From NCBI RefSeq assembly GCF_000023905.1, contig NC_013192.1:1860001-1924000 (forward strand): a DNA stretch of 64,000 nucleotides. The letters are read 5' to 3'. The notes under the pieces were generated by a model. The model did no database searches. It was not told the origin of the DNA and saw only the letters and a list, made by a program, of their open reading frames with translations. This document shows, one piece after another, positions 19,815-25,010 of this stretch; the stretch's first letter is position 1; every line of letters starts with the position of its first letter. The position numbers and the translations under genes were made by a program. The DNA comes from Leptotrichia buccalis C-1013-b (GTDB taxonomy: Bacteria > Fusobacteriota > Fusobacteriia > Fusobacteriales > Leptotrichiaceae).

Positions 19815-19934
19815 CTAAACCCGATTTGAAAAAAAGAAATCTAATAAAATATTCAACCAACATTCAACTTCTTCTTCCCCAAATAAACCACTTACAAAAT
19901 CTAAGATATAATCACATAAATTCAGAACTATCAA
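19815..19934 (-). CDS. Possible 36-39-residue acidic peptide under a HicB-type operator promoter
   Basis: An open frame follows the promoter/operator at 19978-20006 and an AGGAG at 19935-19939. The first in-frame start is a TTG that directly touches this SD; a CTG at 19923-19925 has better spacing (9 nt). The peptide contains CDYILDFVSGLFGEEEVECW and then NILLDFFFSNRV: acidic, two cysteines, alternating hydrophobics. I do not recognise it. The addB promoter lies just downstream, so the unit would be self-contained. It is shorter than usual annotation limits, and only the promoter-operator-SD-ORF order supports it. Confidence 0.3.
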   Translation of the reverse strand: MIVLNLCDYILDFVSGLFGEEEVECWLNILLDFFFSNRV

Positions 19935-19977
19935 CTCCTATATTTATTTTTCATATCATCTTTTTAATTACAAAATT

Positions 19978-20006
19978 ATTATAATACGTATTAAATACGT
20001 AGTAAA
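19978..20006 (-). promoter_or_regulatory. Promoter with ACGTATTAAATACGT operator left of the CRISPR array
   Basis: On the minus strand TTTACT (20001-20006) and TATAAT (19978-19983) are 17 bp apart. A perfect 15-bp palindrome occupies 19986-20000, inside the spacer. The same geometry, with the operator two bases from the -10 box, is found at the hicA promoter (24982-25010). It faces away from the array toward the short ORF and addB. Confidence 0.6.
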
Positions 20007-20076: not shown

Positions 20077-20237
20077 TGTTTTATTAATATTCTAAATCTT
20101 TGATGGTGTTAATTTGAGGAACTTATATATATGTTTTAGTCCTCTTCATTTTTGGGGTGGTCTAAATCTATATCGAAAGTTAAGCTAGAATGTGTCATAT
20201 TGTTTTAGTCCCCTTCATTTTTGGGGTGGTCTAAATC
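20077..20237 (-). CRISPR. Type VI-A CRISPR array: two full repeats, two spacers, one collapsed terminal repeat
   Basis: Two 37-nt repeats lie at 20201-20237 and 20132-20168. They differ at one position (TCCCC against TCCTC, plus strand). Read on the minus strand they start GATTTAGACCACCCC and end GGGGACTAAAACA; CCCC/GGGG forms the short crRNA hairpin known for Cas13a. The orientation is set by the leader at higher coordinates and the terminator at 20053-20074. The spacers are 20169-20200 (32 nt) and 20099-20131 (33 nt). The terminal unit at 20077-20098 keeps only the repeat ends (TGTTTTA and TCTAAATC on the plus strand) with the hairpin core lost. The more divergent repeat is leader-distal, as expected. 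I could not match the spacers to any target. Confidence 0.93.
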
Positions 20238-20458
20238 CCATCCAATTATGGGATAATATGTTACTTTTTATTTTAATATTTGATTATTTATTGTTTTTTT
20301 ACTGATTTAGATTATCCCTTTGTCTTATTTTACCACATTTTTCTCATAATGCAAACTAATATTCCAAAATTTTTGTTTCTTTTCTTATGATTTTTTCTCC
20401 GATAGTTATTTCGCCAGATAAGATTTTCATTTTCTTGAACTAAACGACTTTATATTTT
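20238..20458 (-). promoter_or_regulatory. CRISPR leader between cas13a and the array
   Basis: These 220 bp of AT-rich sequence separate the cas13a stop from the first repeat. Next to the repeat is a perfect 7-bp inverted repeat ATCCCAT/ATGGGAT (20235-20254) whose left arm includes the last three bases of the repeat. No consensus promoter is certain, and no terminator was seen after cas13a. The array could therefore be read from a leader promoter or by readthrough from cas13a. Confidence 0.55.
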
Positions 20459-23400
20459 TTAGTTTTCAGATTTTTTTTCTTCCATTTTATATTCAAACAT
20501 AATCTTCACAAGTTTACACAATTCTTCTGAATTTCTATCAGTCATTAATTTTTTCTTTTTTAAATTTTTCAAATGTACAATTTTTTCCGACTCTAAAGTC
20601 TGAATTCCTATTTTCTTATCTGCTCCTATTTTAAATGTTGCTACAAAACCATATTCCTTTAATATATCCACTACTGATTTCATAACTGCATTTTTAAGTT
20701 TTCTATCATAAGAAAGTAGTTTTCTTAAATTTTCCAGCACTTCTAAAAGTGAAATTTCAGCATGCGGAATATAGTTGAAATGTGCAATATAGTTTCGTAT
20801 ATACAAATCTTTTTTCTCTTGTTTTAACACTTTTATATTTGCACTGGAATATTTATTTATTTTTACTTCATCATTTTGATGTAATTCCTTATAAAATTTT
20901 ATATACTTTTCAACAATTTGTCCACCTTTATATTTCACATTCTTTTTATTCTCAAAATTAAATATTTCTTCTATATACTGATTTTCTGGAAATTCCCCTT
21001 TTAATCTAAATCTCAAATCTCTTTCCCAAATCGAAGTATACCCCACAAGTCTATGAAGTATTCTTAATAGTAGACCTTGTAACAAATTTAACTCATTAAA
21101 TTCTACTTTATTTTTCAAATGAGTATATTCTTCTATATTTTCAATTGCCTGTTTATAGCTTTCATAATCTTCATCTGTAAATTTTTCATCTTTTCTAGGT
21201 CTTGCATATTTTCTATGTAAATTTTCCTGCATTTTATGATTTTTTTCAATTTCATTTTTTTTATTACTGTATTTTTTCAATTCTTCTATACTTATTTTAT
21301 ATCCTGCCTTATCCGCTATTTTCTCAAGTAAATTTAACATCCCATATTTTTTTATATTATAAAAAGCTCTATGCTTTATAATATTTTCTCCATCAAAATA
21401 TATTTTATTTGTGTCAAATTTCTTCAATTCTTTATTATCTTTTACCTTATTTCCATTAAAATCTAAAAACTTCCCAATTTCATCCGCTTCTAATTCAAAA
21501 TCTTCTGTTACTCTATTATTATCTAAATTTAAAAGATTTATAAGTTCAAGTTGATCTGAAAAAGCTTCTTCTTTATTTGCACTCTGATATTTTTCAAGAC
21601 TTCCTTTCAAATTAGTCAATTCTTTATGATTAAGCAATTTTAAAATTAAATAAAACATGTTCAATCTTTCGGTGTATTTTAATATATTTCCTAATTTTAT
21701 CTCTCTTAAAAATTCATTTATTTCATATGGAATTTTAATATTATTATTTTGTTCATATTTTTTCAAGAATTTATCAAATTCTTGCTTTTTTTCTGCTAAA
21801 GAAGTATTTGTTTCTTCATCGCTTCCAATATATATTAGGCTTAATCTTCCGTTATTTGCCAAGTAAGTCATAAATCCTTTTAAAAATATTTTTTGTATAA
21901 AGTCAATATATGTATCTTTTTCCTCTTCATCCTGATTTCCAGCATTAATCATATAAAGGCTTTGTATATTTGCAAGATATTCTTTAGGAATTTTTTCTTG
22001 AATATCTTCAAATTTTTGTAGTTTATAAAATCCAGTTTTTAAATTTCTTTTATCATTTTTATTTAATTCAATTATTTCTTTGCTTATCTCAAAAAAATTC
22101 CCGTTATTGCTCATAAAATAATTTAAAAATTCTCCATAATAAATATTTTTCAAAAGATATATCTGAGCATCTATAATTTCTTTAGTTTTATTATCATCAT
22201 TTGTTTTCGGAGTTTTCCAATAAATACCTAGACTATTTTTTAAATCATCTATCCTGCTGTACAATTTTGTAAATGACGGAACAAATGGAATATTTTTATT
22301 AACAAACTCAAATCGTGTTCTCTTTAAATAATTTAATATTTTATATTTTTCCAAATACCTAAATACATTCGCACTATTCAACTGCCTAAATATCTTCAAT
22401 TTCAATTTTTTCTCATTTATTTCATTTTGAAACATTTTTTTTGAAATTTCAGAAGGAGCTATATTTTTAAATGCAAATATATCTTTCCCTTCTAATTCCA
22501 AATTAAAATGCACAATCCCATGTCTAATACTGCTAATAGCTTCATCAATATTTGCGAAAAAATCTTCTATCTCATTTTTATTATCCATATTAAAATCATA
22601 ACTATAGAACATTTTTAAATTTTCTTTTACTTCATTTTTCTTGTTTTCATTGTATATTTTATCAACTTCTCCAGAAACATATTTTTCTTCGCCCTTATTA
22701 TTTTTTACAGTCTTTCCTCTCATTCTACCTGTAATATCATTCTCATTTTCAGTTTCAAGAATATTTCTCAATGAAAAATATGCAACCGAAGAAACTCCAA
22801 TTATATTTCGTAAAAATGCTTCATTTTGTCTATTCCTAGCAATAAAATCACTTGTTGCAATTTCTCCATCTTGTAAATAATAATTATATTTCCCGCAATT
22901 TCTTACATAAGTATCCAATTTATTTAGTAATTTATTTTCAATTAATTTTTTTAAATTTTGATATTCAAATATTCTCTTAATTTTATCGTTACTTATATTA
23001 CTCAGTCTTTTATACACATAATTTTTCAAAAGCTGACTCATTTCAATTTCCACAAAATGACAAAAAGCATATTTTATATTTTTATCATTAAGTTCTTCTT
23101 TATCCAAATAATATTTATAAAACACTTGTGATTTTTTTAATTCACTCATATCTGGAACTTTTTCAATTAATTCTTTCATATTATTTACATTTTGTATTTC
23201 TTCATAAATAATTTTAGCAAAATTTTCTTTATCATTTTTTCTTCCAATTATTTCGTGATAAAATTCTCTTATTTTATATTTTTCAAGCTTTGTTAAATTT
23301 TCTATTTCTAAAACTAACTTGGCAATATCCTCTTCTTTATATAATTTATCAAAGGCTTCTTTTACATTACTCACATAAGCATCACGTTTTGCTGATTCTC

Positions 23401-23938
23401 TGTAATAATCATAAATAATATTTCTTTTGCTCTTTCCTTCAACTTTTTCAATATTATTTTCATTAATTTTCTGGTAATTAGCCTTATTTTTTTCAAATGA
23501 ATATTTTAAAGAATTTATTTTATTCAATTTTTTCTTAATATCGTTTCTAAATACTTCCAATTCTTCTGAATTTACATTTTCATTTAAATATATTTTTTTT
23601 AAAACCGCAAAATTTTTTTTATCTCTTACATCGGATTCCAAAATATCTGTTTCAGAATATTCCCTGTCAATATTTTCCTTTTTTCCATTCTTTAAGCTTA
23701 AGGTATTGTCTTTTAAATACACCATTTTATTTGAAAAGAATTTTTTCAGTTTTCCTATTCTTTTTTGATTTTCTTTTGTTTCTGTACTGCTAGGATTTTT
23801 TATATACATATCTAGTCTCATATTTAAAAGTGCAGATAATCTCTCATCAGTCCTATTTTCTTCACTTTCGCTTTTTACAAGCCTTCCTTCACTAGTATAT
23901 TTTTTATGTGAAATTCCTCCAACTTTTGTAACTTTCAT
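20459..23938 (-). CDS. cas13a: Cas13a (C2c2) RNA-guided RNA-targeting ribonuclease, type VI-A effector
   Basis: Cas13a processes its own pre-crRNA, binds RNA complementary to the spacer and then cuts that RNA and bystander RNA with two HEPN domains. Both RxxxxH catalytic motifs are present: R472/H477 in SSIRHGIVHF (codons near 22525) and R1048/H1053 in YIRNYIAHF (codons near 20797). Length (1159 aa) and sequence match what I remember of L. buccalis Cas13a. The domain order would be NTD, Helical-1, HEPN1, Helical-2, linker, HEPN2. The ATG has an AGGAGG SD and lies 29 bp after hicB on the same strand. No cas1 or cas2 lies nearby. The array with the cognate repeat is 220 bp downstream. Confidence 0.98.
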   Translation of the reverse strand: MKVTKVGGISHKKYTSEGRLVKSESEENRTDERLSALLNMRLDMYIKNPSSTETKENQKRIGKLKKFFSNKMVYLKDNTLSLKNGKKENIDREYSETDILESDVRDKKNFAVLKKIYLNENVNSEELEVFRNDIKKKLNKINSLKYSFEKNKANYQKINENNIEKVEGKSKRNIIYDYYRESAKRDAYVSNVKEAFDKLYKEEDIAKLVLEIENLTKLEKYKIREFYHEIIGRKNDKENFAKIIYEEIQNVNNMKELIEKVPDMSELKKSQVFYKYYLDKEELNDKNIKYAFCHFVEIEMSQLLKNYVYKRLSNISNDKIKRIFEYQNLKKLIENKLLNKLDTYVRNCGKYNYYLQDGEIATSDFIARNRQNEAFLRNIIGVSSVAYFSLRNILETENENDITGRMRGKTVKNNKGEEKYVSGEVDKIYNENKKNEVKENLKMFYSYDFNMDNKNEIEDFFANIDEAISSIRHGIVHFNLELEGKDIFAFKNIAPSEISKKMFQNEINEKKLKLKIFRQLNSANVFRYLEKYKILNYLKRTRFEFVNKNIPFVPSFTKLYSRIDDLKNSLGIYWKTPKTNDDNKTKEIIDAQIYLLKNIYYGEFLNYFMSNNGNFFEISKEIIELNKNDKRNLKTGFYKLQKFEDIQEKIPKEYLANIQSLYMINAGNQDEEEKDTYIDFIQKIFLKGFMTYLANNGRLSLIYIGSDEETNTSLAEKKQEFDKFLKKYEQNNNIKIPYEINEFLREIKLGNILKYTERLNMFYLILKLLNHKELTNLKGSLEKYQSANKEEAFSDQLELINLLNLDNNRVTEDFELEADEIGKFLDFNGNKVKDNKELKKFDTNKIYFDGENIIKHRAFYNIKKYGMLNLLEKIADKAGYKISIEELKKYSNKKNEIEKNHKMQENLHRKYARPRKDEKFTDEDYESYKQAIENIEEYTHLKNKVEFNELNLLQGLLLRILHRLVGYTSIWERDLRFRLKGEFPENQYIEEIFNFENKKNVKYKGGQIVEKYIKFYKELHQNDEVKINKYSSANIKVLKQEKKDLYIRNYIAHFNYIPHAEISLLEVLENLRKLLSYDRKLKNAVMKSVVDILKEYGFVATFKIGADKKIGIQTLESEKIVHLKNLKKKKLMTDRNSEELCKLVKIMFEYKMEEKKSEN

Positions 23939-23967: not shown

Positions 23968-24390
23968 TTACTCAATACCTAATTCTTTTTTTAATGCTTT
24001 TTGTAAAATCTGTGAAAAATTTAGATTTTTTTCCTGTGCCAATATATCTAGCCAAACAGGAATTGTTAAAGTTTTCTTTTTAAGTGCATTTGTAACTTTT
24101 GCCACTTCATACACTGGATCAACAGATAAAATATACAAATACTGATTTTCTTTCAGTTTCACATCCTCCACTTTTGAAGGCTCAGGAAATTTTTTTCTTA
24201 CATCCAAAAAATCAGCCAAATGCAGACCCAATGTCTCTCTCAAATTTGAAACAGCCTCCTCCATGCTGTCTCCAAATGTAGCATAATAATTTATCTCTCC
24301 ATCTTCAAACTTATCAAAATCAACAATACAACCATAATAAGTCCCATCTTCCTTAGTTACCACTACTGGATAAAATACATCCATTTTCAT
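23968..24390 (-). CDS. hicB: HicB-type antitoxin with C-terminal ribbon-helix-helix
   Basis: This 140-aa antitoxin should bind and block HicA and repress the module's promoter. The N-terminal partial RNase H-like fold is typical: FYPVVVTKEDGTYYGCIVDFDKFEDG, then YATFGDSMEEAVSNLRETLGLHLADFLD. The C-terminus (KKKTLTIPVWLDILAQEKNLNFSQILQKALKKEL, residues about 105-138) reads as a ribbon-helix-helix DNA-binding domain. An SD (AGGAGA) precedes the ATG. Normally hicA and hicB nearly touch; here 297 bp with CRISPR debris separate them, and hicB instead sits 29 bp before cas13a. It may therefore control Cas13a expression through the palindrome at 24408-24422. Confidence 0.85.
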   Translation of the reverse strand: MKMDVFYPVVVTKEDGTYYGCIVDFDKFEDGEINYYATFGDSMEEAVSNLRETLGLHLADFLDVRKKFPEPSKVEDVKLKENQYLYILSVDPVYEVAKVTNALKKKTLTIPVWLDILAQEKNLNFSQILQKALKKELGIE

Positions 24391-24407
24391 TATCTCCTAT
24401 CTATTTT

Positions 24408-24422
24408 ACGTATTGAATACGT
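24408..24422. promoter_or_regulatory. ACGTATTGAATACGT operator upstream of hicB-cas13a
   Basis: This perfect 15-bp inverted repeat, with arms ACGTATT/AATACGT around one base, lies 17 bp before the hicB ATG. It matches the sites at 19986-20000 and 24990-25004. A -10-like TATACA overlaps its upstream edge on the minus strand, but no good -35 box is visible. Confidence 0.6.
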
Positions 24423-24446
24423 GTATAAAAATGTTTATAAAATTTT

Positions 24447-24464
24447 TTTAGCATCTCTGCTAAA
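24447..24464. repeat. GNRA-loop hairpin, copy near hicB
   Basis: On the minus strand TTTAGCA-GAGA-TGCTAAA is a perfect 7-bp stem with a GNRA tetraloop. A second copy, TTTGGCA-GAAA-TGCTAAA, lies at 24588-24605. There one base change gives a G-U pair and the loop keeps the GNRA form. The flanking A/T runs are shared too, so about 30 bp is directly repeated within the hicA-hicB gap. Confidence 0.55.
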
Positions 24465-24587
24465 TCAAAATAATTATTTCAAATTTTTCTATTTTTTTAA
24501 TCATTCATTCAGAATCACTATTCTTTACTCGTATAACTTTCTTTTCACTTAATCTTTCTAAAATAATTAAACTTTTTCAAAAAATTT

Positions 24588-24659
24588 TTTAGCATTTCTG
24601 CCAAATTAAGAATTCCCTTCGTTTTTGGGGTAGTCTAAATCCCATCCAAATTATTGGAT
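24588..24659 (-). repeat. Degenerate CRISPR leader-repeat unit between hicA and hicB
   Basis: The block 24615-24641 matches the leader-proximal 27 nt of the array repeat at 25 positions, in the same orientation (minus). It includes GATTTAGACTACCCC and the start of the GGGG arm. The remaining 10 nt (24605-24614) have decayed. The match continues about 20 nt into the leader side, including an inverted repeat ATCCAA-ATTA-TTGGAT (24644-24659). In place of a spacer stands the GNRA hairpin copy at 24588-24605. It is an isolated unit, not an active array. The rest of 24391-24687 shows no ORF. Confidence 0.8.
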
Positions 24660-24687
24660 AATAATTTTTAGTGAAAGCAAGAAGGGA

Positions 24688-24870
24688 CTAGAATTTAATC
24701 CCAACTTGTTTTTCAATACTTTTTACTGTTCCTACAGGTATATCTTTTGAATATGGTACTGTGACCACACCTTCCACACCTGGGATCATCCATTGATAAT
24801 GACTACCTTTTATACGTACAACTTTTCCGCCTAATTTTCTAAATCTTTTTTCGATTTTTCTATATGACAT
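24688..24870 (-). CDS. hicA: HicA mRNA interferase toxin
   Basis: This 60-aa dsRBD-fold toxin cleaves mRNA and tmRNA when free of HicB. The family pattern is intact: SYRKIEKRFRKLGGKVVRIKGSHYQWM, with the catalytic His in GSHYQW, and a second strand pair leading to VTVPYSKDIPVGTVKSIEKQVGI. I start at the second ATG (24870), 9 nt after AAGGGA; the upstream ATG at 24879 touches that SD. It has its own consensus promoter with a palindromic operator. The usual tight link to hicB is lost (297 bp). The toxin residues look functional, so retained antitoxin control is expected. Confidence 0.88.
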   Translation of the reverse strand: MSYRKIEKRFRKLGGKVVRIKGSHYQWMIPGVEGVVTVPYSKDIPVGTVKSIEKQVGIKF

Positions 24871-24981
24871 AAATATCATTCCCTTCTAAAATAACGTTAA
24901 TCATAACTTCTAATAGAAAGTATCTGAAAATTAGGAATAGTTGAAAAGTTTTACAAATAGTCATTTTCAACTTACAAGTCT

Positions 24982-25010
24982 ATTATAACACGTATTCAGT
25001 ACATTGTCAA
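24982..25010 (-). promoter_or_regulatory. Consensus hicA promoter with operator in the spacer
   Basis: On the minus strand TTGACA (25005-25010), exactly 17 bp, and TATAAT (24982-24987). A 13/15 match to ACGTATTNAATACGT occupies 24990-25004, between the two boxes. A bound HicB dimer would block RNA polymerase. The leader to the hicA ATG is about 105 nt. Confidence 0.78.

Follow-up and report, generated by a model that had tools for sequence, protein, structure and literature searches.

The stretch of DNA analyzed here (the window, 64,000 nt) belongs to the Leptotrichia buccalis genome, which is one contig of 2,465,610 bp. On the minus strand it carries, in this order, tpiA, secG, hicA, a solitary CRISPR leader-repeat element, hicB, cas13a, array 2, and addB; the names tpiA, secG, and addB are putative and were given by sequence appearance, not by family search. 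The intact hicA toxin gene (24688..24879, minus strand; 63 aa; Pfam HicA_toxin, E=6.7e-16) is preceded by a promoter with a perfect TTGACA-17-TATAAT arrangement (24982..25010, minus strand), detected in a promoter and palindrome scan and containing a HicB-type palindrome within its spacer. A terminator-like hairpin (24684..24702, minus strand) spans the hicA stop codon immediately ahead of the leader; it is conserved and folded in the related genome G003. The conserved TAGTCCCTTC at the hicA end was considered as an anti-repeat of the distal half of the repeat and rejected, since the 3' arm of this hairpin accounts for it better. The gap between hicA and hicB is about 300 bp. The hicB antitoxin gene (23968..24390, minus strand) encodes 140 aa (Pfam HicB_lk_antitox, E=3.5e-6, 27.6 bits against a cut-off of 27), and cas13a (20459..23938, minus strand; 1159 aa) starts about 29 bp past it. 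Its product is LbuCas13a, as shown by full-length PDB matches (5xwp/5xwy/9mvs). Array 2 (20132..20237, minus strand) has two repeats and one spacer (20169-20200).

The palindrome TACGTATTNAATACGTR was found in the spacer of the hicA promoter (24989-25005 within the promoter at 24982-25010; three mismatches), upstream of hicB (24407-24423), and beyond array 2 (19985-20001). The copy upstream of hicB (TACGTATTGAATACGTG; 24407..24423, no strand) is a likely operator. In G003 both of its arms are changed and it is still palindromic (ACGTGTTTAACACGT), which suggests that HicB probably controls hicA and, through hicB, cas13a. Behind the third palindrome, between array 2 and addB, there is a short open frame with a promoter-like site (LNLCDYILDFVSGLFGEEEVECWLNILLDFFFSNRV; 19820-19935, minus strand), which was not seen in G003. 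The surroundings of array 2 also contain an inverted half-repeat, GATTTAGATTATCCC (20304-20318, plus strand), with the counterpart GATTTAGATTACCCC in G003 (L035 7022-7036, minus strand), matching the repeat front at 14/15 positions. In the window alone this match is not beyond chance; in both genomes it lies just behind the -10 element of the likely array 2 promoter. The 5' end of the array 2 transcript could thus base-pair with either the leader or the first repeat. The array 2 leader of G003 contains an insert with inverted ends, AGAGTGTGTCTG...CAGACACACTCT (L035 7040-7095), which is absent in the window.

The solitary element was delimited by sequence comparison to 24605-24664 on the minus strand and consists of a leader core, a repeat, and a tail. 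Its repeat (24615..24641), read from 24641 to 24615 as GATTTAGACTACCCCAAAAACGAAGGG, is identical at 25 of 27 positions to the array 2 repeat at 20237->20211. Directly ahead of it is the leader core of 22-23 nt (ATTATTATCCAATAATTTGGATGG; 24642..24664, minus strand), which reads ATTATTATCCaATAATTTGGATGG from 24664 to 24642. When this segment was aligned with three array leaders, that of array 2 in the window and those of the two G003 arrays, the core proved common to the solitary unit and all three arrays. A 35-mer leader-plus-repeat pattern (three mismatches or fewer) matched two sites in the window, array 2 and 24615-24649 on the minus strand, with 0.00 matches expected and 0/100 shuffles yielding one. 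Genome-wide (2.47 Mb), the core of the repeat was present only in the two array 2 repeats and the solitary repeat, and a reversed-pattern control of the core gave 0 matches. An Rfam search at E<=1 returned no match. The 25 preserved repeat bases and the roughly 20 nt of leader flank in the original prediction were confirmed. The element lies about 4.4 kb from the array (4404 bp start to start) and not 3.7 kb.

The unit had been called degenerate. Over its front 27 nt the repeat differs from that of array 2 by C10T and T21C, and comparison with the published repeat of LwaCas13a from L. wadei (GATTTAGACTACCCCAAAAACGAAGGGGACTAAAAC; PMC8869480, Table 2) revealed that the solitary repeat equals the first 27 nt of this VI-A repeat at 27/27 positions. 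The two differences are therefore not decay. The front half is identical to neither the G003 nor the array 2 repeats, so this LwaCas13a-type sequence would have diverged or been converted independently, a point that weighs against the collapse reading given below. The loss is confined to the last ten nucleotides (24605..24614, minus strand), where GACTAAAACA is replaced by AATTCTTAAT, including a change of G28 to A; in contrast to the L. wadei repeat, the distal end GACTAAAAC is absent from the L. buccalis element.

Among the 13 Leptotrichia genomes searched, one further genome, G003, carries the locus. Its Cas13a is 85% and its HicB 90% identical to the L. buccalis proteins, and the gene order is the same: secG and hicA precede the locus, and array 2 and addB follow it. 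Where L. buccalis has the element, G003 carries the leader core, a first repeat (R1, GATTTAGAGCACCCCAAAAATGAAGGGGACTAAAAC), a spacer, a good second repeat (R2), another spacer, and a degenerate terminal repeat (R3, GATTTAGAGAACCCCAAAAGTAAGGAAAATTTGTAA). In this one comparison genome, the site is thus a true mini-array of three repeats and two spacers rather than a solitary unit, which directly supports the earlier suggestion that the unit is the scar of an older array. The L. buccalis site has one repeat only, and the two repeats around a spacer that a working array needs are absent; the solitary unit is therefore classed as an array relic, not an array. The two genomes align continuously from R3 through to hicB, and the interval missing in L. 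buccalis relative to G003 is bounded by repeats. Scans of genome contigs with Cas13a and the repeat pattern, and of viral contigs with the repeat pattern and two spacers, gave nothing usable.

We compared the tail of the element with each of the G003 repeats. When anchored past repeat position 27, the window tail matched the tail of R3 (p=0.025) and not that of R1 (p=0.97) or R2 (p=0.75). The R3 match is modest in an AT-rich sequence, and no significance was reached when the tail was aligned locally to R3 with its ends left free (p=0.17). The GGGGACTAAAAC end is likewise lost in the terminal repeats of other Leptotrichia VI-A arrays (G003 array 2, G002, and G004). These data support a terminal-repeat identity of the tail. 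The distal 10 bases of the repeat are gone, as the original prediction stated, although not by random loss; the ten bases now in their place resemble degenerate terminal-repeat tails. Identity to G003 was 89% in the repeat, 93.5% from the hicA stop to the leader, 90% in the hicA promoter region, and 81% in the post-element region; in this single comparison of L. buccalis with G003, conservation of the element does not exceed that of its neighbors.

With a leader core, one terminal-type repeat, and zero spacers, the element is very probably a collapsed type VI-A CRISPR array, and it is most likely an ordinary scar rather than a new regulatory RNA. The ancestor shared by L. buccalis and the G003 species would have carried two arrays, one downstream of cas13a and a second, short one separating hicA from hicB, and the L. 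buccalis lineage would have lost all spacers of the second. The simplest route would be recombination or replication slippage, which the sequences do not distinguish, joining the repeat next to the leader to the degenerate one at the array end. The leftover would be what is seen here, a leader core and one repeat with a normal front half and a decayed 3' end of the terminal type. Loss in L. buccalis is a likelier direction than gain in G003: new repeats arise in adaptation as copies of the one next to the leader, so that a decayed single repeat could not have given rise to the intact R1 and R2 of G003. This polarity rests on the repeat-copying rule rather than on an outgroup, as only two genomes carry the locus. 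The element would probably be transcribed only as hicA read-through and would have no guide function, and we infer that it is without function.

A review (PMC8047081) predicts such a product, under the name "array collapse", when the leader-adjacent repeat recombines with the terminal one, and it describes 3'-end polymorphism of terminal repeats; natural and engineered cases of collapse come from type I-F arrays of Legionella pneumophila. The product is alike, a leader and one terminal-type repeat left by recombination of the first with the last repeat. In contrast to the Legionella case, the L. buccalis array is of type VI-A and lies beside a hicAB-cas13a locus that keeps a one-spacer second array, in a genome without VI-A cas1-cas2.

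The intact leader-repeat junction raises the question of refilling. As a naive but usable array, the leader and single repeat would form a docking site for spacers inserted by Cas1-Cas2 acting in trans; naive spacer uptake at a lone repeat beside a leader is known from other systems, and L. pneumophila arrays that had collapsed were repopulated (PMC8047081). For L. buccalis we consider this improbable. Any repeat added would inherit the decayed end and yield nonfunctional crRNAs, and the genome has no close VI-A Cas1 homologue. Its best match (31% identity, E=2e-4) is a 323-aa Cas1 that is distant from VI-A Cas1 and is encoded in another adaptation module (G000:C1:1171263-1173244; L119 5264-7245), together with a 98-aa Cas2 and a Cas4-like protein of 214 aa. 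VI-A cas1 itself (L036 6997-7911; L117 5789-6730) is 97-100% identical among G003, G004, and G006, and the adjoining cas13a encodes 1140 aa in G003 and 1389 aa in G006. Effector genes thus seem to have been swapped beside a constant VI-A adaptation module.

A second reading concerns the transcript in which such an array would lie. If the ancestral array, like that of G003, were part of a hicA-hicB-cas13a transcript, Cas13a would cleave the message that encodes it, at a site between the toxin and antitoxin genes, coupling crRNA processing to the HicAB balance and the Cas13a level, and the lone repeat of L. buccalis would be left over from this control and still able to bind Cas13a weakly. We give this scenario, including the residual binding, a low probability.

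Processing and cleavage are both abolished by single mutations in the bulge (PMC8209922), and the bulge C and the flank are contacted base-specifically in the Rhodobacter enzyme (PMC8776769). The solitary repeat carries G28A, C30T in the bulge, and a replaced 3' flank. Judged by sequence and predicted fold against these published requirements, its recognition by Cas13a would be lost.

These changes bear on a CreR/CreA-like RNA, which would be transcribed and bound by Cas13a and whose pseudo-spacer TTGGCAGAAATGCTAAAAAATTTTTTGA would pair with the 5' UTR of hicB-cas13a to regulate expression of the antitoxin or Cas13a. The likeness to CreR/CreA of the CreTA systems (PMC12737573) lies in a solitary degenerate repeat near an effector gene and a toxin-antitoxin pair, and in weak complementarity of a pseudo-spacer to a nearby 5' UTR. 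The duplex of pseudo-spacer and hicB 5' UTR was predicted at -16.1 kcal/mol, against -10.1+-2.2 kcal/mol for random sequences (p=0.01), and no complementarity was found to the hicA or cas13a 5' regions. The repeat front, including the processing side, is intact. However, the predicted stem is cut from four to 3 bp (-3.2 versus -6.9 kcal/mol for the array repeat), the AC bulge is changed to AU, and the 3' flank AAAAC to CUUAA. The leader has no promoter-like site in the promoter scan; the closest strong promoter belongs to hicA, and the terminator-like hairpin over the hicA stop lies in between.

The pairing itself has a simple source, because both partners carry a shared near-palindrome. The palindromic segment TTTGGCAGAAATGCTAAAAA at the pseudo-spacer position (24586..24605, minus strand) has its sole genomic near-copy at 24445-24464, upstream of hicB, so that the pseudo-spacer and the hicB 5' UTR are the only genome sites. 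In G003, which has a normal array at the site, the segment past the last repeat is not palindromic and lacks this sequence; the pseudo-spacer is not conserved. Moreover, CreR is reported in types I and V-A only, outside type VI (PMC12737573), and the neighboring toxin in L. buccalis is, in contrast to CreTA, the protein HicA with its own antitoxin. Lacking the features for effector recognition, a promoter, and conservation, the element differs from CreR/CreA in what would make it work; such a role is possible but unlikely, and the specific regulatory circuit outlined above appears very improbable. The suggestion of a crRNA-like RNA that still binds Cas13a accordingly fared poorly, since the stem lacks its fourth pair and neither the sequence-specific AC bulge nor the AAAAC flank is kept. 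A 44-nt likeness between the post-element region and the hicB 5' UTR was also considered as regulatory pairing and rejected: G003 does not share it, and the other matches to it in the genus are mostly ordinary coding sequence.

Between the element and hicB we detected a remnant of a second hicA (24500..24562, minus strand), a pseudogene covering approximately codons 12-32 with stops inside. DNA alignment against shuffles was the decisive test. Local alignment to intact hicA gave a score of 52, compared with 29+-4 for shuffles (p=0.002), and the same remnant in G003 scored 56, which 0/1000 shuffles reached; the G003 copy reads KIVQVKKNH*Q*VI versus KVVRIKGSHYQWMI of HicA. Frame-wise BLAST was weak (E=0.004, window only), and a Pfam search of the stop-bearing pieces gave no match. 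In both genomes, a decayed second hicA thus lies between the element or array and hicB, so that hicB still has a hicA remnant beside it. This suggests that hicA, or a larger unit from hicA to the array, was duplicated. The placement between hicA and hicB holds for intact hicA on one side; on the other, the neighbor is the hicA remnant followed by hicB. The whole region between secG and addB forms an island, because these two genes can lie close together in genomes without this cas13a, for example 125-126 bp apart in G008 and G010. The idea that an insertion carrying the CRISPR unit split a contiguous hicAB operon, to which the 300-bp gap and the palindrome of hicB's own would correspond, is the least probable of all, since the array precedes a hicA remnant-hicB pair in both genomes and duplication of hicA or of the hicA...array unit fits better.

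The collapsed array offers a clear natural case of array collapse in type VI-A, beside the gene of LbuCas13a, a much-used RNA-targeting enzyme. This gene immediately follows the antitoxin gene of a hicAB module whose palindromic sites resemble operators, and in a relative a second array is placed between toxin and antitoxin of that module. The case also advises caution: a solitary degenerate repeat should not be called a regulatory RNA without checking a relative.
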